A stretch of DNA of 64,000 nucleotides. Source: an uncultured Pseudomonadota bacterium. GTDB lineage: Bacteria; Pseudomonadota; Gammaproteobacteria; Methylococcales; Methylomonadaceae. Made by a program: the position numbers and the translations under genes. The stretch spans positions 62,001-126,000 of the forward strand of contig CAIQDI010000028.1 of NCBI GenBank assembly GCA_903870545.1, written 5' to 3'. Below the pieces are notes generated by a model. The model searched no databases. It saw only the letters and a program-made list of their open reading frames with translations, and was not told the DNA's origin. Positions 5,012 to 60,144 of the stretch are shown here, one piece after another; within the stretch, counting starts at the first letter, position 1; each line of letters begins with the position of its first letter.

Positions 5012-5029
5012 AATGGTTTTCCTAAATGT

Positions 5030-5054
5030 AAGGGCGGGTTCTAAACCCGCCCTT
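5030..5054. repeat. GGGCG-type palindrome, copy A1
   Basis: A perfect hairpin with 11-base arms (AAGGGCGGGTT / AACCCGCCCTT) and a 3-base loop, in the 121-base gap between ppnP and the ABC-F gene. It belongs to a family seen at four places in this window, most often as two hairpins a few tens of bases apart. It could act as a transcript end for ppnP, but no T-run follows directly. Confidence 0.8.
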
Positions 5055-5101: not shown

Positions 5102-5122
5102 GGGCGAGTTTGGAACTCGCCC
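5102..5122. repeat. GGGCG-type palindrome, copy A2
   Basis: A hairpin with 9-base arms (GGGCGAGTT / AACTCGCCC) and a TGG loop, 48 bases from copy A1. The arm sequence differs from A1 by compensatory changes that keep the pairing, as expected for a dispersed REP-like or MITE-like element rather than a chance repeat. Confidence 0.75.
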
Positions 5123-5472: not shown

Positions 5473-6246
5473 TTAAGAAGATTCGGGAACGTAAATAATT
5501 TTTTGCCCTGGATACGTCGAGCGAATGTTATCAAGCGTGTGTTGCGTTAATTCCGCACCTTGTTTAACCAAAACAGTGCCATATTGATCGCACAAATCGC
5601 CTTCTTCTAATTTTCCTGGCGATAAATAAACGATTTTATACAAATTCATGTCGTTATTTTCAACGGGCAAATAAAATACCGGATTACGTTGCAACAATCC
5701 TAGAAATGTTTTGACTAATTCTGGATCAAGTTCTGCACCGCTGGCGGTGTAACTGAAATAATGAATAATATCTTGTGGAATAGAACGTTCTTCGCCAAAC
5801 ATTTCACCAATCATCATGGCATCGTACAAATCGACGACCGCCATAATGCGTGAGGCTAACGAAATTTCTTCGCCTTTCAATTTATCAGGATAACCTTCAC
5901 CGTTAAATTTTTCATGATGATGGCGCACGATTTCTAAAATTTCGACATCGGTAATCACTTTGGACAATAATTTTTCCCCCTCGATAACGTGACGCTGAAT
6001 CAAATCGACATCCGTGTGAAGCGTCATATCATGAGAAATTTTGGCAAAATCTATATCCAATTTTAAAAAACCAATGTCGTGAACCAAGCCACTCAAAAAA
6101 ATTCGTTTTTTAAATTCCGACGATTGATTTAACGCTTTTGCCAACTCGAAAGCGTAACACGCCACACGCTTGCAATGCAGTCCAAGTTTAACGTCGGCTT
6201 TGTGTTGCGCCAACAGTAAAATCTCTAATAAACCACTGTTTATCAT
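5473..6246 (-). CDS. HD-GYP domain protein, probable c-di-GMP phosphodiesterase
   Basis: The frame is open to 6468, but the extra stretch overlaps the next gene and is not HD-like. The ATG at 6246 has an upstream AGGCGA and gives a 257-residue protein. It holds a compact HD-GYP domain: metal-binding 'GLVHDIGF', then 'HHEKFNGEGYPD', in which GYP is intact, and 'VVDLYDAMM'. HD-GYP enzymes hydrolyse cyclic di-GMP in a metal-dependent way. A C-terminal segment of about 60 residues ('LSPGKLEEGDLCDQYGTVLV') follows, with no domain I recognise. There is no N-terminal receiver or sensor, so its input is unknown. The window also has a GGDEF-EAL protein and a degenerate GGDEF, so c-di-GMP signalling is well represented. 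Confidence 0.85.
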   Translation of the reverse strand: MINSGLLEILLLAQHKADVKLGLHCKRVACYAFELAKALNQSSEFKKRIFLSGLVHDIGFLKLDIDFAKISHDMTLHTDVDLIQRHVIEGEKLLSKVITDVEILEIVRHHHEKFNGEGYPDKLKGEEISLASRIMAVVDLYDAMMIGEMFGEERSIPQDIIHYFSYTASGAELDPELVKTFLGLLQRNPVFYLPVENNDMNLYKIVYLSPGKLEEGDLCDQYGTVLVKQGAELTQHTLDNIRSTYPGQKIIYVPESS

Positions 6247-6277
6247 AATAAAAATCGCCTGATAAAATGAAAACGGC

Positions 6278-6760
6278 TTATAACCGAACGAATGTGTGAT
6301 TGTGGCAAGTCGGACAATTTGGAATTCGGCTGGTTGCTTTAAATGCGATTTCTTTGCCGCAATCGTTACAAATAAACGTGCCAGCAATGGTAATATCGCC
6401 ACTTTGATATTTGTGTGTTTCGGCAAGAAATTCGATTTTAGCGAGTTCGATGCGTGTTTTATCGGCAACGCTTAAAAACGCATCCCACGTTAAATTCTCA
6501 ATCAATTCAATGTCGAATTTCAACCAGTCGGACAATGAATTATTATCATGAGCCGGTAAATTCTGCGCCGCGTGTTCAACATCACGTTTTACTTGCGCGG
6601 AAACATGATCCAATTCTTCAGTCGTTAATTCGCTGCTTTCATTGGTTTTTTCTTTAGAAATTTCAAACGCATCCGTGAACGAATGCAGCGTGTCTTCCAT
6701 CGTTTCATGCAAATGGCGCATGAATTCACTGTAAGCGGTAATCAATTTTTGTGTGTTCAT
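6278..6760 (-). CDS. Zinc ribbon-containing protein, DUF1451/YbeL family
   Basis: A 160-residue protein with an acidic, helical N-terminal part resembling YbeL ('TAYSEFMRHLHETMEDTLHS') and a C-terminal zinc ribbon made by 'CNDCG' and 'CPTCH' in the last 30 residues. The family is common in gammaproteobacteria and has no firm function; the ribbon suggests nucleic-acid or protein contact. It lies 31 bases upstream of the HD-GYP gene on the same strand and 133 bases downstream of pabB. That 133-base gap is AT-rich and shows no clear terminator. Confidence 0.82.
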   Translation of the reverse strand: MNTQKLITAYSEFMRHLHETMEDTLHSFTDAFEISKEKTNESSELTTEELDHVSAQVKRDVEHAAQNLPAHDNNSLSDWLKFDIELIENLTWDAFLSVADKTRIELAKIEFLAETHKYQSGDITIAGTFICNDCGKEIAFKATSRIPNCPTCHNHTFVRL

Positions 6761-35968: not shown

Positions 35969-37003
35969 ATGAAGCATTTTCGATTATCTTTTATGGTCGC
36001 CATTATCTGTTTGAGCATCGCATTTTATTGGGGATTTTCAAAAGGCGGTATCACAGCCGCTACAACAAGCGTGATGATTGCGCTCATTTTAGGGGTGTTA
36101 GAAGTCAGTTTGTCGTTTGATAACGCGGTGGTCAATGCGTCAATTTTGAAACGCATGGATGATAAATGGCAGCAGTATTTTTTGACCTGGGGAATTTTGG
36201 TCGCGGTATTTGGAATGCGTTTATTATTTCCGATTGCGATTGTGGTTTTCGCGACAGGCATTGATTTTGTTGCCGTTGCACAAATGGCGTTGAACGATTC
36301 AGCGACTTACGCGCATCATTTGACCGGCGCACACGTTCAAATTGCAGCCTTCGGCGGTATGTTTTTGTTGATGGTCTTTTTTGGATTCTTATTCGACAAC
36401 GACCGCGAAATTCATTGGCTCGGTTATTTAGAACGGAAATTCGCGAGCTTTGGCAAATTGGAATCCATCGAAATCATTTTATCGCTTTCCATCTTGCTGG
36501 GAATGCAAAATTTCGTTAATCCCGAAGATCGTTTAACGTCTTTAGTCGCGGGCATTTCAGGCGTAGTTTTATTCGTTATCGTGGACAGCATGTCGGCGTT
36601 ATTTGAAAACGAAGAAGAAGGCGCAGAAGTGTCAGATGCTATTAAACGTGGCAGCATGATGAGCTTTATTTATTTGGAAATTTTGGACGCTTCGTTTTCA
36701 TTCGACGGCGTGATTGGCGCGTTTGCGATTACTCAAGACGTGGTTATTATTATGTTGGGTTTAACGATTGGCGCGATGTTTGTGCGGAGTTTGACGGTAT
36801 ATTTGGTGCGTCAAGGCACGCTCGATGAATATGTGTTTTTAGAACACGGCGCACATTATGCGATTGGCGCGTTGGCGGGCATTATGTTGGTCAGTATGAA
36901 ACACGAAATTCCTGAAGTCATTACAGGATTAGTCGGCGCAATGTTCATTGGTTTATCGATATTGTCGTCTATTTTTTACAAACGCAAACTGGCAAAAATT
37001 TAA
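35969..37003 (+). CDS. DUF475/TerC-superfamily membrane protein
   Basis: A 344-residue integral membrane protein with about nine hydrophobic segments. The paired acidic motifs 'LEVSLSFDNAVVNASIL' (near 45) and 'LEILDASFSFDGVIGAFAI' (near 235) are those of the DUF475 branch of the TerC superfamily. The conserved Asp and Glu lie inside membrane helices and are thought to handle metal ions; TerC relatives export manganese or protect against tellurite. It is a single-gene unit between its own promoter and a pair of palindromes. Confidence 0.82.
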   Translation: MKHFRLSFMVAIICLSIAFYWGFSKGGITAATTSVMIALILGVLEVSLSFDNAVVNASILKRMDDKWQQYFLTWGILVAVFGMRLLFPIAIVVFATGIDFVAVAQMALNDSATYAHHLTGAHVQIAAFGGMFLLMVFFGFLFDNDREIHWLGYLERKFASFGKLESIEIILSLSILLGMQNFVNPEDRLTSLVAGISGVVLFVIVDSMSALFENEEEGAEVSDAIKRGSMMSFIYLEILDASFSFDGVIGAFAITQDVVIIMLGLTIGAMFVRSLTVYLVRQGTLDEYVFLEHGAHYAIGALAGIMLVSMKHEIPEVITGLVGAMFIGLSILSSIFYKRKLAKI

Positions 37004-37010
37004 GCCGTAG

Positions 37011-37072
37011 GGGCGAATAACATTCGCCCTCTAATTAAGTAATCATATTGGTTGGGCGAATGTTATTCGCCC
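37011..37072. repeat. GGGCG-type palindrome pair, copy C
   Basis: Two hairpins in the 106-base gap between the DUF475 gene and moxR: GGGCGAAT-AAC-ATTCGCCC at 37011-37029 and GGGCGAAT-GTT-ATTCGCCC at 37054-37072, with 24 bases between them. The two loops are reverse complements, so the whole unit is also an inverted repeat. The same two-hairpin plan is seen at 58.24-58.33 kb, and in looser form at 5.03-5.12 kb. Confidence 0.8.
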
Positions 37073-37109
37073 TTACATTTAAAACATTTAAAACGGGCTA
37101 AATTGTTTT

Positions 37110-52911: not shown

Positions 52912-55014
52912 ATGAAAAAGAGAATTTCTCCGCTTTTGGTTTTTATGACGTTGATGAGCGTGGCACAAACGATTTACGCGCTTCAACCTGAACAAGCGTT
53001 TTTGATGTTGCCGCCTAGCGCACCGCCACTTCCGACAAATGCTTCGGTGTTATTTACTTGGGGAAACACTCCCGTTGCACAAATTATAAGTTATCGGCTC
53101 GTGGTTTCCAAAACGCCTGATTTTAGCGGTTATAACGCCACAACAAAGGCGTGTAACAACACTTGTTTTACAACGACGGTGCAAAAAACCAATTATTTAT
53201 TACCCATTTCAAACGCGATTTTGAAAGCGGATAACAATTATTATTGGCGAATTGAAGCCACGAACACGGGCGGCGCGAGTTTATCGGATATTCACGCTTT
53301 TTCATTTGGAGCTGCCGCGCCCGCACTCGATCCCAAATTTCTGGTGCCGATTCCTAACCTGACCGCCGTGAGCGTTTTACCGACTTCGGTTATTCAAGGT
53401 ACGCCGTTGACGATTTCCGCGACATTGGATATTCCTTTGCCGGCTGGTTTTGTTGCTAAAGTTGATTATGGCACCGGCAATGGTTTACTTTTAATGACGG
53501 GTTCGGGAACCAGTTACAGTCTTGCCCAAACGCCGACAAAATTAGGCACGCAATCGTTTAACGTCGGTATTTATGATAATAAAGGCGTGTTAAAAAGTAA
53601 AAAATTAGCCGGCAGTTTTAAAGTCACCGCCCCCGTTTTATTACCGGTACCGCCTGTTTTAAGTTTGGTCAGTAAAGTGAGTATGATTTTAAAAGTAGAC
53701 GTGAACAACGTTTACACGATTCAATTTTCTGCCACAGACAAAAACAGCGATTTACGGTTAATTAGCATCGATTGGGGCGATGGTTCGAGTGATTCGAGAA
53801 ATGTTGCTGACGGTAAAACGGTGCCATTCACACACACTTACACCGCAGCAGGTTCGTTTACTTGGAGCGCAACCGCTTACGATTACACTGACCCAGCGAG
53901 CAACATTATTTCTCAAACGGTGACTGTTTTATTACCTGAACCGCCTGTTTTAAGCTTGGTCAGTAAAGATATGATTTCAAAAGTAGACGTGAACAACGTT
54001 TATACGATTCAACTTTCAGCCACAGACAAAAATAGCGATTTACGGTCAATCAGCATCGATTGGCTGGATGGTTCGACTGATTCGAGAAATGTTGCGGATG
54101 GTGCAACGGTGTCATTCACACACACTTACACCGCAGCAGGTTCGTTTACTTGGAGCGCAACCGCTTACGATTATACGCATGCAGCGAGCAATATCATTTC
54201 TCAACCGGTGACCGTTTCAGTGCCAGTTGATCCAACGACTGGGATTGTTACACCGCCACGCTATTTTGAAGTAGCGGAAGATGGCACAGATTTGCCCGAT
54301 CAAGCGATTTTGATGAAGAACGCGGGTGCTAAAACCGATGCACTTGTTGGCGCGGGGGCAAACGGTTGGGCGTGTACTCGTGACGATAAAACCAAACTCA
54401 TTTGGGAATTGAAAACCAATAACGGCGATTTACACGACAAACGTTGGACTTACAGTTGGTACGAACCCGATGCTACCAAAAATGGCGGTTATGCCGGAGC
54501 GCAAAATGGCGGTTCATGTCGAGGAAGTGATTGCGACACGGCGGCGTATATTAAAGCCGTGAATGCTCAAACATTGTGTGGCGCGAGTGATTGGCGATTG
54601 CCAACGAATGAAGAATTAAAAGGATTGGTTTATTGTGCCGACGGCGAATCTAAAGGATTTGACGCAGTAAAAGGCGGTTATATTTGTACGACTCCTTCGT
54701 CGCCCACGATTGATTCGATTTATTTTCCAAATACGCTGAGTGATTGGTTTTGGTCATCGACAACGTATGTCGCGCCTGCTTATGTACCGATTCCGCCTAA
54801 AACGAAAGTCAGCACCACCAAGCCTCCCAAACAATTGCCGATACCGAAAATTTATGCCGATTCGGCGTGGGATACGTCGTTTTACTACGGTTATAATTAT
54901 CGACACAGCAAAAGTAATTATGCGGGCGTTCGTTTAGTGCGTAACGCAGCGGCTACGACCGGAACAACAGCAACAACTAAAGCGACGACTACAGCAACAA
55001 CCACTACACCATAG
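52912..55014 (+). CDS. Exported PKD-repeat and DUF1566 (Lcl C-terminal) protein
   Basis: 700 residues. The signal peptide is 'LLVFMTLMSVAQTIYALQP'. A fibronectin-like region (about 30-130) and a second beta domain (to about 240) are followed by two nearly identical tandem PKD-like units of about 97 residues (roughly 245-440, each with 'HTYTAAGSFTWSATAYDYT'), then a DUF1566 domain ('TKLIWELKTN', 'ASDWRLPTNEELKGLVYC', 'FWSSTTYV', 'GVRLVRN'). A Thr/Ala-rich tail closes it ('TTGTTATTKATTTATTTT'). Such proteins are secreted or surface proteins; DUF1566 is related to C-type-lectin-like folds. Binding of a partner or surface sugar is inferred. Confidence 0.75.
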   Translation: MKKRISPLLVFMTLMSVAQTIYALQPEQAFLMLPPSAPPLPTNASVLFTWGNTPVAQIISYRLVVSKTPDFSGYNATTKACNNTCFTTTVQKTNYLLPISNAILKADNNYYWRIEATNTGGASLSDIHAFSFGAAAPALDPKFLVPIPNLTAVSVLPTSVIQGTPLTISATLDIPLPAGFVAKVDYGTGNGLLLMTGSGTSYSLAQTPTKLGTQSFNVGIYDNKGVLKSKKLAGSFKVTAPVLLPVPPVLSLVSKVSMILKVDVNNVYTIQFSATDKNSDLRLISIDWGDGSSDSRNVADGKTVPFTHTYTAAGSFTWSATAYDYTDPASNIISQTVTVLLPEPPVLSLVSKDMISKVDVNNVYTIQLSATDKNSDLRSISIDWLDGSTDSRNVADGATVSFTHTYTAAGSFTWSATAYDYTHAASNIISQPVTVSVPVDPTTGIVTPPRYFEVAEDGTDLPDQAILMKNAGAKTDALVGAGANGWACTRDDKTKLIWELKTNNGDLHDKRWTYSWYEPDATKNGGYAGAQNGGSCRGSDCDTAAYIKAVNAQTLCGASDWRLPTNEELKGLVYCADGESKGFDAVKGGYICTTPSSPTIDSIYFPNTLSDWFWSSTTYVAPAYVPIPPKTKVSTTKPPKQLPIPKIYADSAWDTSFYYGYNYRHSKSNYAGVRLVRNAAATTGTTATTKATTTATTTTP

Positions 55015-56248: not shown

Positions 56249-57094
56249 TTAAGACAAATTTTGAATTTCAGCAAACGTTAAACCCGTTGTTTCTGCAATT
56301 GTTTCAACGTTTAAACCTTTGGATAACAAATTTTTAGCGATGTCGTAAGTGGCTTTTAGTTTTCCAACTTGTTTACCTTCTAATTTTCCCTCTAATCGCC
56401 CAAGTTCTTTGCCTTCCTGCCAACTTTCTAACGCTTCTTTGCGTGCTAATTCAGCACGACTATATTCTTCAATCATATCCGCACGTTCTTTGGGCGTGAT
56501 ACTCGATTTTTCGATAGACGTAAAAATTTTCTGAATCGCTAAATGATGATAATAAGTTTCGTCAACTTCCTCGTCTAATGTGTCTTGAATCGCATCCATC
56601 CATTCACGATAAGCCTCAGGCGTTTTGTCATTCGCATATTTTGGGCAAAGGTAAATCACTTTATGTGCAATTTCATCTACGCCATTACCGTCTAAATCTT
56701 TGGGATCACAATCAATCGTTAAAACATCTTTTCTGTAACGGTCTCCAGACGTTAAAACCACAATCGTAAAGACGCGCATGTCAGGGCGATAACTTTTTGA
56801 ACTGTCGATTAAATCCAAAATTGCCGCGCAATGATAATGAAAAAATCGATCGTAATGATCTTCGTAACGCGCGTGTTGAATATCAACAATAATGCGGTTT
56901 TTCACGTCTTCGGCAAACAAATCAAACCGTAAATCCACTTTGCCGATTAACGGATTAAACGATTTTTCGGTTTCAACGTAGTCGATTTCTAAATCAATTC
57001 CTAAAATCGCTTTGACAAATGCTGTAAAAACATCAGGTTGTGAAAAGGCTTTTTTAAAAATTACGCCGTAGCGTAACGAGGCAACTTTTTTCAT
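56249..57094 (-). CDS. Rpn-family PD-(D/E)XK nuclease
   Basis: A 281-residue protein of the Rpn/'PD-(D/E)XK nuclease family transposase' group. It starts 'SLRYGVIFKKAFSQPDVFTA', has 'DLRFDLFAEDVKNRIIVDIQ', where the Asp and the ExxQ-like end form the nuclease core, and carries a charged C-terminal tail with short repeats of the type 'LEGKLEGKQVGK'. Members promote RecA-independent recombination or act as toxic nucleases and are often numerous per genome. It lies between rluB-DUF2970 and the restriction-methylase, 86 bases downstream of the latter. Confidence 0.85.
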   Translation of the reverse strand: MKKVASLRYGVIFKKAFSQPDVFTAFVKAILGIDLEIDYVETEKSFNPLIGKVDLRFDLFAEDVKNRIIVDIQHARYEDHYDRFFHYHCAAILDLIDSSKSYRPDMRVFTIVVLTSGDRYRKDVLTIDCDPKDLDGNGVDEIAHKVIYLCPKYANDKTPEAYREWMDAIQDTLDEEVDETYYHHLAIQKIFTSIEKSSITPKERADMIEEYSRAELARKEALESWQEGKELGRLEGKLEGKQVGKLKATYDIAKNLLSKGLNVETIAETTGLTFAEIQNLS

Positions 57095-57180: not shown

Positions 57181-60144
57181 TTATTTCCCCGCTCGTTCTA
57201 AATTCAGTTTCAATAATCGCCGCAAAATTTCTTCGTCAGCCATTTCGGGCGTGTAATCGTCCCAATCGTAAGCACGCGCCACCGCTTTGTCTACCATTTC
57301 ATGCGCGGATTTTAACCAATTCGGTTTTAGGTTGTACAAATTCGTCAGCGTGCGTTTTTTCAAATCCGCTTCGTGTCCCACTTTCGCAATCGGACGTTTT
57401 GGAAAACCCGCTGTTTCTTCGGCTGGCGAAATCACCCAATCCACCCAAATTTCAGGATTCAACCACGCTTCACGCAGTTGATTGAGTTTTATCGCCGCGT
57501 CGGAAATCGCAACATTTTCAGCATTATCCGCAGGCGTTAAACCGTTTGGAAATGGGAAGGTTTCAAAACAAGAAACTGCGTTATACGTTGGGTCATTTCC
57601 TACGCCATGCCAAGAGCAAGTTGCCAAAGACCACAATTGATGAAAACGTGAATGCAAAATGCCGAAAGTTGTGTCGTCAGAACGAGCAATTACAGTTAGG
57701 CGCGTATCTGGCAAAACAGCAACTGGCAACCAAACAAAAAATCGATGTTTTGAAACGCGCGGCGTTGCAATAAAGCGTTTGAGCGGAGCAATTTCTTTTC
57801 TTAATTCAGGACGCGAGCGTTGATGAATCCACCATTTTTCGTTAGCTTTTTCTTCACGCTTGCCAATTCGCACAGGTTTAACGTTTTCTAAAATGTGTTC
57901 AAAAGGCAATTCAAACAAACTCGCATCGGCTTCCGTCATCGACACGCCAAAATCAATAATCCAAGTATCGGAAGAACGGCGCGTAATATCCATGCCATTT
58001 GACCACGGTTTGACGACTTCGCTATTGGGTTTTCCGTTTGGATTTGGTTGCGTTAGCCATACACGCGCCATTTCACCAGTGACATCAAACGCGCCACTTT
58101 TTTGCGTGCCGATAAAAGACGTTTTTGCATTTTCGAGCAGGATTTTTGCTTGCGTAATGTTGGTATTTTCTTCGCCATTTCCTGCGGTCAAATCGGCATG
58201 AATCACCGCGACGGGTTGACCATTTAGGCGCATCGTTCGTAAGGGCGGGTTCGTAACCCGCCCTCCTTTTTCAGAATATGACGTATCCAATCGGTTGTCA
58301 TTCAGGGCGGGTTTAGAACCCGCCCTTACACCTGCTCTTGCACCTGCCCTTACACCAAAACACACCATCGAAACTCGAACCGCCGCGCCATTATCAAACC
58401 AATTTTCATCTGACCACGCCTCGAAAATCGTCAATTTTTTGCAAATGTTGTCGAGAACGGTGCGATTTGAACCGCCGCGAATAGAATTAGTAGAAACCAA
58501 ACCAGCGGCTTGAGTTTTACCCGATTCGATTTGTTTGCGTGCTTTATCAAACCAATAACAAACCAAATCCGCGCCACCTGCCACGCGCCCTTTGTAGCAT
58601 TTTCGCAATTTTGCAACGTAATCATCGCCCAATTCTTTGAGCATTTTTTTATCGCCCAAAAACGGCGGATTGCCAACAATCACATCGGCTTTTGCCCATT
58701 TTGTTTCGGTTCCGTCGGAATTTAAAAGCGCGTCTTTGTGTTGAATGCCGTCCAAACTTCGTAAAATCGGATTTTTATCAAACAACCGTCCGTTACGTTG
58801 CGACCATTGCAAATCACCAATCCACACCGTGACACGCGCCAACTCAGCGGCATATTCGTTGATTTCCATGCCGAGAATGTTGTCGGTTCCCGTTGAAAGC
58901 AAAATTTGTTTTTGAAAACCAAGCGTTTCTGCGTCGAGTTGCGCGGCGTGTTCCAAATCTTTGAGCGCGTGCAACGACAAATACAAAAAATTGCCCGAAC
59001 CGCACGCCGCGTCTAAAACCCGAAAATTGCGGAGTTGTTCTAAATAACCGAAATACAAATCTTGAGCAGCTTTATGATGTTGTTTTTTTGCGGCGGCGGT
59101 TTTAACGGTTTTTTCTTTGGCTAAAAATTCCAACATTTCAGCTTTGACGATTTGCCATTTCGCCGTCAACGGTTCGGTAATCAGCGGGTCAATAATTTTT
59201 TTAATCGTGGCAACATCGGTGTAATGTGCGCCGAGTTGCGCTCGATTTGACGGATCCAATCCGCGCTCGAATAACGTGCCAAAAATTGTCGGGTCAATCG
59301 CTCGCCAATCTAAATTATGGGCAGCGTTAAACAAGACGGCTAAATCGTTGGCGGTGAGTTCGGGAATCTCGATTTTTTTAAACAAACCGCCGTTAAACCA
59401 ATGAATATCATCGTTGCCATATTCCCCGCCTTTGTTTTGCATCGCTAAAAATAACGATTTCAACCGATTTGCCGCTTTTTTTTCATCCGTGAGTGTGGCT
59501 TTTAGCAAGTGCGTAAAAATGTGAATATCGTCGGTGGCGTTAGCATTTAATAAACCTTCGTCTTCAGCAAACATACAAAAAATACACTGCGTTAGAAAAT
59601 GCGCGACGATTTGCGGTTTAATGCCACGTTCACGCATTGCCGTTGCCAATGTTGAAAATTCGCCAGCCGCTTGCGCGGTAATGGCGGCGCAGGATTTTAA
59701 CGGTTTGAGCTTGTCGGGATCGGTGAAAACCCAACGCAGAATTTGCAGGTTTTGCGGCTCGCCAATATCGGGCAACAAAATCGTGCGCGGCTCGTCGGGA
59801 TAACCTCGAAATACGGTGTGAATTTCAATGCGTTCACGGTCACAAACAACCAACAGCGGCGGATTTCCTAAATGCCCGGCATATTCGCGCAATTGCGCTA
59901 AGGCTCGCGTGAGATTTCCGCCAGTTTTTTTGTTTTCCCAACCAAAATGGTCGCGTTTCCAAACATCTGCCCAACCATTTTTGCCGCTGTCTTTAATCGC
60001 GCCTTTTTCATAACAAAAATCATCCGAACTGCGCGGCTTTTCGAGTTGCAATAATTCGCATAAATCTTCAATAAAAGCCTGTGCGCCAGCGCGTTCGGTC
60101 AAATCGTTTGCTGTCCAAACTTGAACAAATTTCTCAGGTATCAT
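57181..60144 (-). CDS. MmeI-like (type IIL) restriction-methylase fusion with palindrome insertion
   Basis: 987 residues. The N-terminal nuclease site is D60-x9-E70-x-K72 ('GWADVWKRDHFGWENKKTGG'). A helical connector leads to the methylase with motif I 'LDAACGSGNFLYL' (about 380) and motif IV 'VIVGNPPFLGDKK', then the specificity domain ('WSLATCSWHGVGNDPTYNAV'). One protein thus cuts and methylates DNA, as in MmeI; the recognition site cannot be read by eye. Residues of about 597-635 ('[19 protein letters not shown]...') are encoded by a palindromic repeat pair and short tandem repeats and interrupt an otherwise conserved region between 'VSMVCFG' and 'LNGQPVAVIHADL'. The gene begins on the base after the M48 protease stop. 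Confidence 0.85.
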   Translation of the reverse strand: MIPEKFVQVWTANDLTERAGAQAFIEDLCELLQLEKPRSSDDFCYEKGAIKDSGKNGWADVWKRDHFGWENKKTGGNLTRALAQLREYAGHLGNPPLLVVCDRERIEIHTVFRGYPDEPRTILLPDIGEPQNLQILRWVFTDPDKLKPLKSCAAITAQAAGEFSTLATAMRERGIKPQIVAHFLTQCIFCMFAEDEGLLNANATDDIHIFTHLLKATLTDEKKAANRLKSLFLAMQNKGGEYGNDDIHWFNGGLFKKIEIPELTANDLAVLFNAAHNLDWRAIDPTIFGTLFERGLDPSNRAQLGAHYTDVATIKKIIDPLITEPLTAKWQIVKAEMLEFLAKEKTVKTAAAKKQHHKAAQDLYFGYLEQLRNFRVLDAACGSGNFLYLSLHALKDLEHAAQLDAETLGFQKQILLSTGTDNILGMEINEYAAELARVTVWIGDLQWSQRNGRLFDKNPILRSLDGIQHKDALLNSDGTETKWAKADVIVGNPPFLGDKKMLKELGDDYVAKLRKCYKGRVAGGADLVCYWFDKARKQIESGKTQAAGLVSTNSIRGGSNRTVLDNICKKLTIFEAWSDENWFDNGAAVRVSMVCFGVRAGARAGVRAGSKPALNDNRLDTSYSEKGGRVTNPPLRTMRLNGQPVAVIHADLTAGNGEENTNITQAKILLENAKTSFIGTQKSGAFDVTGEMARVWLTQPNPNGKPNSEVVKPWSNGMDITRRSSDTWIIDFGVSMTEADASLFELPFEHILENVKPVRIGKREEKANEKWWIHQRSRPELRKEIAPLKRFIATPRVSKHRFFVWLPVAVLPDTRLTVIARSDDTTFGILHSRFHQLWSLATCSWHGVGNDPTYNAVSCFETFPFPNGLTPADNAENVAISDAAIKLNQLREAWLNPEIWVDWVISPAEETAGFPKRPIAKVGHEADLKKRTLTNLYNLKPNWLKSAHEMVDKAVARAYDWDDYTPEMADEEILRRLLKLNLERAGK
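58243..58325. repeat. GGGCG-type palindrome pair, copy D, inside a coding region
   Basis: Two hairpins, GGGCGGGTT-CGT-AACCCGCCC (58243-58263) and GGGCGGGTT-TAG-AACCCGCCC (58305-58325), 41 bases apart, inside the restriction-methylase gene. The arms are identical to the core of copy A1. The reading frame passes through without a stop. The layout matches the intergenic pair at 37.0 kb. Confidence 0.85.
58323..58356. repeat. 12-base tandem repeat next to palindrome copy D
   Basis: Three near-identical 12-base units (CCCTTACACCTG, CTCTTGCACCTG, CCCTTACACC-) run directly out of the second palindrome. On the coding strand they give the peptide repeat VRAG-ARAG-VRAG. Because 12 is a multiple of three, copy-number change would keep the frame. 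Confidence 0.8.

Follow-up and report, generated by a model that had tools for sequence, protein, structure and literature searches.

We analysed a window of 64,000 nucleotides (the whole stretch under study) from an uncultured bacterium of the Methylomonadaceae (assembly GCA_903870545.1, contig CAIQDI010000028.1, positions 62,001 to 126,000), in which a gene for an MmeI-like restriction-modification (R-M) enzyme carries a pair of repetitive extragenic palindromic (REP) sequences in frame (Table 1). The first-pass annotation had described two perfect hairpins within this gene, with the same arms as an intergenic palindrome at about 5.03 kb, and had claimed that the insert keeps the frame and adds no stop; it had also suggested that the insert could affect specificity or activity. 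Both hairpins are present, the intergenic copy is real, and the 987-amino-acid (aa) open reading frame (ORF) is unbroken across the insert.

The Pfam models MmeI_N, MmeI_hel and MmeI_Mtase all scored above their cut-offs on this protein, and MmeI_TRD, for the target recognition domain (TRD), reached 23.2 bits, under its cut-off of 27. PADLOC assigned the protein to REase_MTase_IIG (Type IIG, E = 1.1e-269), and its top PDB fold match was MmeI (5hr4; Foldseek E = 5.5e-32). It has the architecture of Type IIL enzymes, with nuclease, spacer, methylase and TRD on a single chain (the MmeI_TRD match being sub-cut-off), and shares domain order, methylase motifs and fold with MmeI, as far as the available text of PMC4833311 describes them. 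However, the two proteins are about 21% identical and their alignment ends at the FG turn, the linker lying outside the residue-level comparison.

Table 1. Coordinates of the MmeI-like gene, its repeat insert and the related intergenic copies in the window.
Feature	Position	Strand	Evidence
MmeI-like Type IIL/IIG restriction-modification gene, 987 aa	57181..60144	-	Pfam, PADLOC, PDB fold match
REP dimer (REPIN-like), in-frame insert, residues 606-636	58239..58329	-	absent in homologues
Hairpin toward gene start, GGGCGGGTTTAGAACCCGCCC on + strand	58305..58325		perfect palindrome
Hairpin toward gene end, GGGCGGGTTCGTAACCCGCCC on + strand	58243..58263		perfect palindrome
Two degenerate tandem 12-mers like the REP head (GTAAGGGCAGGT, GCAAGAGCAGGT), coding VRAGARAG	58330..58353	-	reading of sequence
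Gly597 codon, final residue of conserved VSMVCFG preceding the insert	58354..58356	-	alignment
Intergenic copy of the same REP	5028..5053 (palindrome 5032-5052)		sequence match
Decayed partner of the intergenic copy (GGCGAGTTTGGAACTCGCC, 2 mismatches)	5103..5121 (C28:67103-67121)		mismatch search

The in-frame REP dimer

Both hairpins have 9-bp arms and a 3-nt loop. Since they are inverted with respect to each other (58239-58264 against 58304-58329, 92% complementary), we regard the unit as a single REP dimer, with GTAA at both ends. The sequence GGGCGGGTT occurs six times in the window against 0.36 expected, a count reached by 0 of 100 shuffles; these shuffles, together with the genome-wide reversed-pattern control given below, rule out chance palindromes.

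The stretch delimited as VRVS..IH measures 61 aa in the window protein as against 27 aa in the homologous loci L031 and L162 (L numbers denote loci and G numbers genomes), a net gain of 34 residues; the annotated insertion relative to homologues thus stands, at a size slightly below the roughly 38 residues first given. Alignment showed the insert segment to be absent from L031, L034, L036 and L038-L043. In the nearest relative, L037 of G005 (85-87% aa identity), the flanks align around a linker without palindrome, and the gene is frameshifted just upstream of the site, apparently via a loss of about 10 nt by our reading. Among the homologues compared we saw none that had the same segment minus the palindromes, and several have palindromic repeats of other kinds at that very point. 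The original observation is confirmed: a REP dimer has been inserted in frame into an MmeI-like gene.

A structure model based on 38 aligned proteins reached a mean predicted local distance difference test score (pLDDT) of 86, superseding a poor first model from 13 rows (mean pLDDT 65). Residues 601-634 have a pLDDT below 50 and no secondary structure, and are flanked by strands at 587-597 and 638-640, so the insert is predicted to form a disordered loop. The FG turn at window residue 597 corresponds to MmeI residue 588, where the sequence alignment stops, while in the available text of PMC4833311 the methylase of MmeI ends at 620 and its TRD starts at 621. The insert therefore lies strictly in the last part of the methylase, near the seam.

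In the neighbourhood, a PDDEXK_2 nuclease-family gene (56249-57094) with a repetitive EGKLEGKQVGKL tail adjoins the restriction gene, and a 700-aa ORF contains two near-tandem 255-nt copies that are 89% identical (53682-54224).

The repeat family in the host genome

The host genome (2.68 Mb in 39 contigs) holds 26 perfect GGGCGGGTT..AACCCGCCC palindromes, against 0 for the reversed-pattern control, and a slightly shorter core form gave 27 perfect cores at 17 places. When up to three mismatches were allowed, 40 palindromes were matched against 25 in the control; because this excess is smaller, we based our counts on perfect cores. The repeat is found as a stem-loop palindrome in multiple, mostly extragenic copies, and inverted pairs form a unit, with dimers at 10 of the 17 places. 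Most units start with GTAAGGG or GTAGGGG, so that some copies carry a GTAG tag and others GTAA. In the roughly 3 kb surrounding each place, a credible gene encloses the REP at one place, the MmeI-like gene, and the other 16 lie outside credible genes; another dimer overlaps a spurious-looking ORF of 113 aa. The search for further in-gene copies that the first-pass annotation had proposed thus yielded no other credible one among the 17 places.

Rickettsia palindromic elements (RPEs) are palindromic repeats that are read in frame in proteins, and the insert had initially been likened to them. The window REP is likewise palindromic and in frame within a protein, but the likeness fails on spread: RPEs have many in-gene copies per genome, and with 1 of 17 places in a gene here we rejected filing the element as a Rickettsia-type RPE. 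As in REPINs, in so far as the available text of PMC3116915 describes them, two inverted REPs form one unit, and the genome has a gene for a REP-associated tyrosine transposase (RAYT). Unlike REPIN/RAYT systems, the copy number is low (17 places) and the RAYT stands beside another GTAG subtype.

This gene, at C23:12738, is one of three PF01797 matches in the host genome and was identified as a RAYT by NF047646 (181 bits; cut-off, 80). It is flanked on both sides by inverted GTAG-type repeats of the other subtype, which we read from the sequence, the settings of the repeat finder having missed them. The match on contig C28 is an IS200/IS605 transposase (NCBIfam), and that on C9 has a TnpB-like neighbour by our reading. 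The window also contains a second kind of GTAG-type dimer, GTAGGGGCGAATAACATTCGCCC with its mirror copy, at 36994-37089.

Unrelated repeats at the same linker

Homologues were drawn from scans of genome_contigs (20 loci) and viral_contigs (71 loci), from genome searches covering 61, 369, 311 and 398 genomes (overlapping sets with differing E-value limits, the best 30 loci at most being taken from each) and from plasmid records (5 of 30 matches listed, which stood outside the inverted-repeat scan described below). The linker is spanned by 133 ORFs, 131 once those at least 90% identical were removed, of which 60 are close kin (profile score ≥750). Among these 60, the VRVS..IH linker is 25-31 aa long in 48, 34-42 aa in four (L088, L164, L069 and L234) and at least 47 aa in eight, one of which (L172) is an alignment misplacement; the plasmid homologues have linkers of 27-29 aa (L230-L233) and 42 aa (L234). 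The 48 short linkers rule out an ancient native loop common to the homologues.

Repeats make up the long linker in seven of the 60 close homologues, namely the window protein, L032, L035, L045, L161, L165 and L185, where they add 20-158 residues and are mutually unrelated. The insert of L032, common to L033, consists of a VRPELVEG..LRQAQHER repeat and a separate 26-nt palindrome; L035 has an FDSAQPT..LSEVETG repeat, L161 a PPFTKG repeat and L165 GTAGGCTGGGTTGAGC..GCAACCCAGCCTAC, while in L185 (model position 595) about four tandem near-identical HAEEGAQRPSR-coding units occupy a stretch of 135 aa in total. In L045, a DUF559 domain (Pfam, 4.8e-37) enclosed by 44-nt perfect inverted repeats lies in frame at the methylase/TRD junction (5792-6279), and this repeat-flanked DUF559 is perhaps a mobile unit. 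A repeat like it lies immediately next to an 'endonuclease domain-containing protein' gene in Deinococcus aetherius (L235). A member of a distant MmeI class, L024, carries GTAGGAGCGGGCC..GGCCCGCTCCTAC at the FG turn as well. In L172 and L171, the apparent long linker turned out to be a misplaced insert at model 563, and we excluded both from the count of repeat linkers. Querying plasmids with 4 kb of L185 was unproductive.

On a 58-row tree (linker columns excluded; quick method, no bootstrap, 12 of 55 inner branches open), at least six changes are needed for the eight labelled rows, among which L032 and L033 have an insert in common. Seven events are likelier than six, since the sisters L045 and L035 differ in their inserts at this site. 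The dissimilarity of the inserts and these tree changes rule out a single ancestral insert. An assembly artefact is unlikely for the phenomenon, as L161 sits in a one-contig genome of 5.2 Mb (G586). Judging from sequence comparison, the linker loop seems to be a recurrent insertion hot spot for unrelated repeats in Type IIL enzymes.

Such recurrence might be expected if a transposase, or the repeats themselves, preferred this DNA site, protein tolerance being secondary, and in the seven close cases the insert does come after the conserved VCF(G) codons, TGTTTTGGT-like. However, all the unrelated repeat families would then need one common target, the distant L024 has an insert within different flanking DNA, and inserts occur at three other loops as well, which makes sequence-targeted insertion very improbable.

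We searched hosts for the cores of five foreign families other than those of L185 and L024 (RPELVEG, FTKG, SPSP and LSEVE, labels coined here from translations, and GTAGGCTGG). RPELVEG (exact) has six copies in G664, seven in G661 and two each in G586 and G1055. At up to one mismatch, GTAGGCTGG has two copies in G465, five in G586 and one in G664, FTKG two in G586 and one in G1055, LSEVE six in G1054, and SPSP four matches at three places in G1055. Reversed-pattern controls gave 0 throughout, except for one GTAGGCTGG match each in G664 and G451 (2 of 6 genomes). On these counts and controls, RPELVEG, LSEVE and SPSP are clearly dispersed, whereas the evidence for dispersal is weak for FTKG in G586 and for GTAGGCTGG in G465.

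We examined 53 places, which comprise those of the five families minus one GTAGGCTGG match in G664, plus the 17 places of the window genome. Ten lie well inside credible genes, of which eight are MmeI-like (seven being the index cases), one HsdS and one phage Mu F-like. Among the 46 non-index places, three are internal to genes, two of them R-M specificity genes. Five further places of the 53 fall within the opening 20 codons of ORFs that are at least 315 aa long and whose start is uncertain, and five more solely in ORFs of 105-148 aa. On plasmids, with an incomplete gene table, the best place of the RPELVEG dimer fell outside listed genes in all 8 records (16 places in total) and that of SPSP did so in 17 of 22 (41 places in total); of the other SPSP records, three had a gene and two lacked annotation.

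Repeat inserts are also found at three further loops of MmeI-like enzymes, at model 469, 563 and 844. We scanned 152 distinct MmeI-like ORFs (none contained within another; 373 kb) for perfect inverted repeats with arms of at least 11 nt and loops of up to 90 nt, a scan that misses L161, whose arms are short, and the long-range repeats of L045. It returned 31 inverted repeats. With arms of at least 13 nt, 15 of 16 lie at model 469, 578-595 or 844, site windows picked after the inserts had been seen, while the sixteenth, in L122, is at 688. Nine loci supplied the 15 repeats at the sites, of which six are from L032 and L033 with their shared insert and one is from L126; the latter, at 578, is native-looking sequence that we did not count as an insert. 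With arms of 11-12 nt (n = 15), five repeats are at the sites and ten are scattered. As a control, 334 stop-to-stop frames of at least 250 aa from the same loci (410 kb; not verified genes) gave 45 repeats, eight with arms of at least 13 nt. Five of these eight lie no more than 50 residues into the frame, a region in which the real start is doubtful; the three internal ones are in an HsdS (L211), a Type ISP specificity domain (L207) and a frame of L126. This control count is biased because L211 had been chosen on account of its repeat, and L207 on account of a different repeat close by.

In the HsdS gene (L211:1098-2996), the REP lies at residue 320 of 633, past the first Methylase_S domain and before the second, the latter by our reading; in L207:2581-3852, a perfect 28-nt palindrome lies inside the Type ISP C-terminal specificity domain (PF18135, 2e-93). 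The genome of L045 has a second MmeI-like gene (L227) with one GC-rich repeat type at the 469, 563 and 595 loops. The insert near model 563 in L171 (2513-2761), L172 and L168, preceding AIFNAWSDE, resembles a small CCDC90-like ORF; in L171, the one tested, the PF07798 match (2.1e-7) falls just short of the cut-off and the ORF is open in a frame other than that of the overlapped host gene.

Probable loop tolerance and its alternatives

The explanation that we regard as probable is that the REP dimer inserted at a loop that tolerates growth, and that unrelated families recurrently landed there in other lineages. The host's own dispersed REP dimer would have entered the loop that follows a long beta strand near the C-terminal limit of the methyltransferase domain, shortly ahead of the TRD; as the frame remains open, the repeat would be read as about 34 extra disordered residues, probably with near-neutral effect. 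REP dimers are probably moved by RAYTs, and insertions at other positions would mostly be purged by selection, survivors being expected where extra residues are tolerated. Unrelated families may land at this loop because its sequence varies and its lengthening leaves the fold intact, and such tolerance is the likeliest cause of the recurrence. Mean pairwise identity among windows from model 441 onward is lowest at 591-610 (29%), against 32-35% at 831-860 and 33-34% at 711-740 inside the TRD. The other sites also fall at loops or helix ends in the structure model (469 and 563 at window residues 475 and 569, 844 just past 877).

Several observations weigh against this explanation. Neither a target-site duplication nor an exact empty site was definable in comparisons with relatives, the closest intact ones showing 75-77% identity across the N-terminal and methylase regions. 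The element and its 12-mers amount to 115 nt for a net gain of about 102 nt, so part of the ancestral linker was lost or replaced. Across the ten genomic dimers, 10 of 60 frames are stop-free. The GTAG subtype beside the RAYT differs from that of the in-gene REP, so this RAYT is at most a candidate for moving the latter. Elsewhere, the inverted repeat of L185 is just 11 nt, the second GTAGGCTGG copy in G465 has one mismatch, a tolerance at which controls also match, and FTKG in G586 has one further copy, again with one mismatch.

The insert might instead be a sign of decay, harmless because the gene is becoming a pseudogene and its enzyme is dead, as the frameshift of the nearest relative near the site could suggest. 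However, the window gene has its full 987-aa frame and keeps the residues invariant in a 38-row alignment, including D60, E70, K72 and the DAACGSGNFL and NPPF motifs. Moreover, L032 and L033, which bear another insert there, differ by 61.7 synonymous and 54.3 non-synonymous changes over 1075 aligned codons of the stop-to-stop frame, a ratio of non-synonymous to synonymous polymorphism (pN/pS) of 0.25, so that the gene seems maintained with its insert in that pair. We find decay quite unlikely.

What makes a role in specificity exchange attractive is that two of the sites (model 595 and 844) bracket the hypervariable TRD and that TRDs diverge sharply, identity between L031 and L166, for example, falling from 87% before the TRD to 39% in it. 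Repeats at TRD seams would then be retained as aids to TRD exchange or diversification, giving genes that are otherwise unrelated short stretches of common homology or sites for breakage. Both bracketing sites carry repeats in L165 and L161 (the L161 repeat at 844 was read from the sequence, its arms being too short for the scan), while L183 has them at 469 and 844, and L045 and L035 at 469 and 595; single further cases come from the HsdS protein and the Type ISP domain. Yet the insert-free pairs L031/L166 and L162/L034 diverge equally in the TRD, the compared homologues included no recombinant whose breakpoint coincides with a repeat, and sites 469 and 563 are not TRD borders. Such a role is possible on these comparisons, but as the reason for the inserts we think it unlikely. 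A broader proposal, that R-M specificity proteins are preferred coding refuges of mobile palindromic repeats, which at TRD seams would serve as handles for swapping or resizing specificity modules and even for importing domains such as DUF559, is speculative and rather unlikely.

The closest known counterparts of the insert are the intragenic REPs that PMC3733652 (BMC Genomics 2013) reports. GTAG/CGTC REPs, often as dimers, occur there in coding sequence and add 20 to 30 or more residues; their host genes belong to several categories, with many from replication and repair, and the recB genes of two Xanthomonas species carry different REPs at about the same site. The window insert is alike in being a dispersed palindromic REP, dimeric as these often are, within coding sequence. 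That a dispersed repeat can enter a gene and add protein sequence, as the first-pass annotation had concluded, is thus seen here but was already published. The difference is that here many unrelated families enter a single loop of one enzyme family across lineages. The word 'restriction' is absent from the main text of that paper, Additional file 3 with its target gene list lying outside the check, and the passages of PMC12306157 gave no match for 'intragenic' or 'restriction'. Among the matches listed (titles and abstract openings, subscription papers and supplements being outside this scope), no paper deals with repeats inserted in Type IIL enzymes. Intragenic REPs are thus known, and a multi-family hot spot in these enzymes appears unreported among those matches; what is new beyond the first-pass annotation is the recurrence at the site in other lineages and its position at the methylase/TRD seam.

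One loop repeatedly, and apparently independently, used by unrelated repeats amounts to natural replicates of a domain-insertion experiment. This loop of Type IIL enzymes seems tolerant of 20 to 158 extra residues, which would be useful for enzyme engineering. The window gene and its homologues would also illustrate how dispersed repeats, and a repeat-flanked DUF559 unit, may turn into protein sequence, and they raise the testable question of whether mobile repeats influence how restriction specificity evolves.

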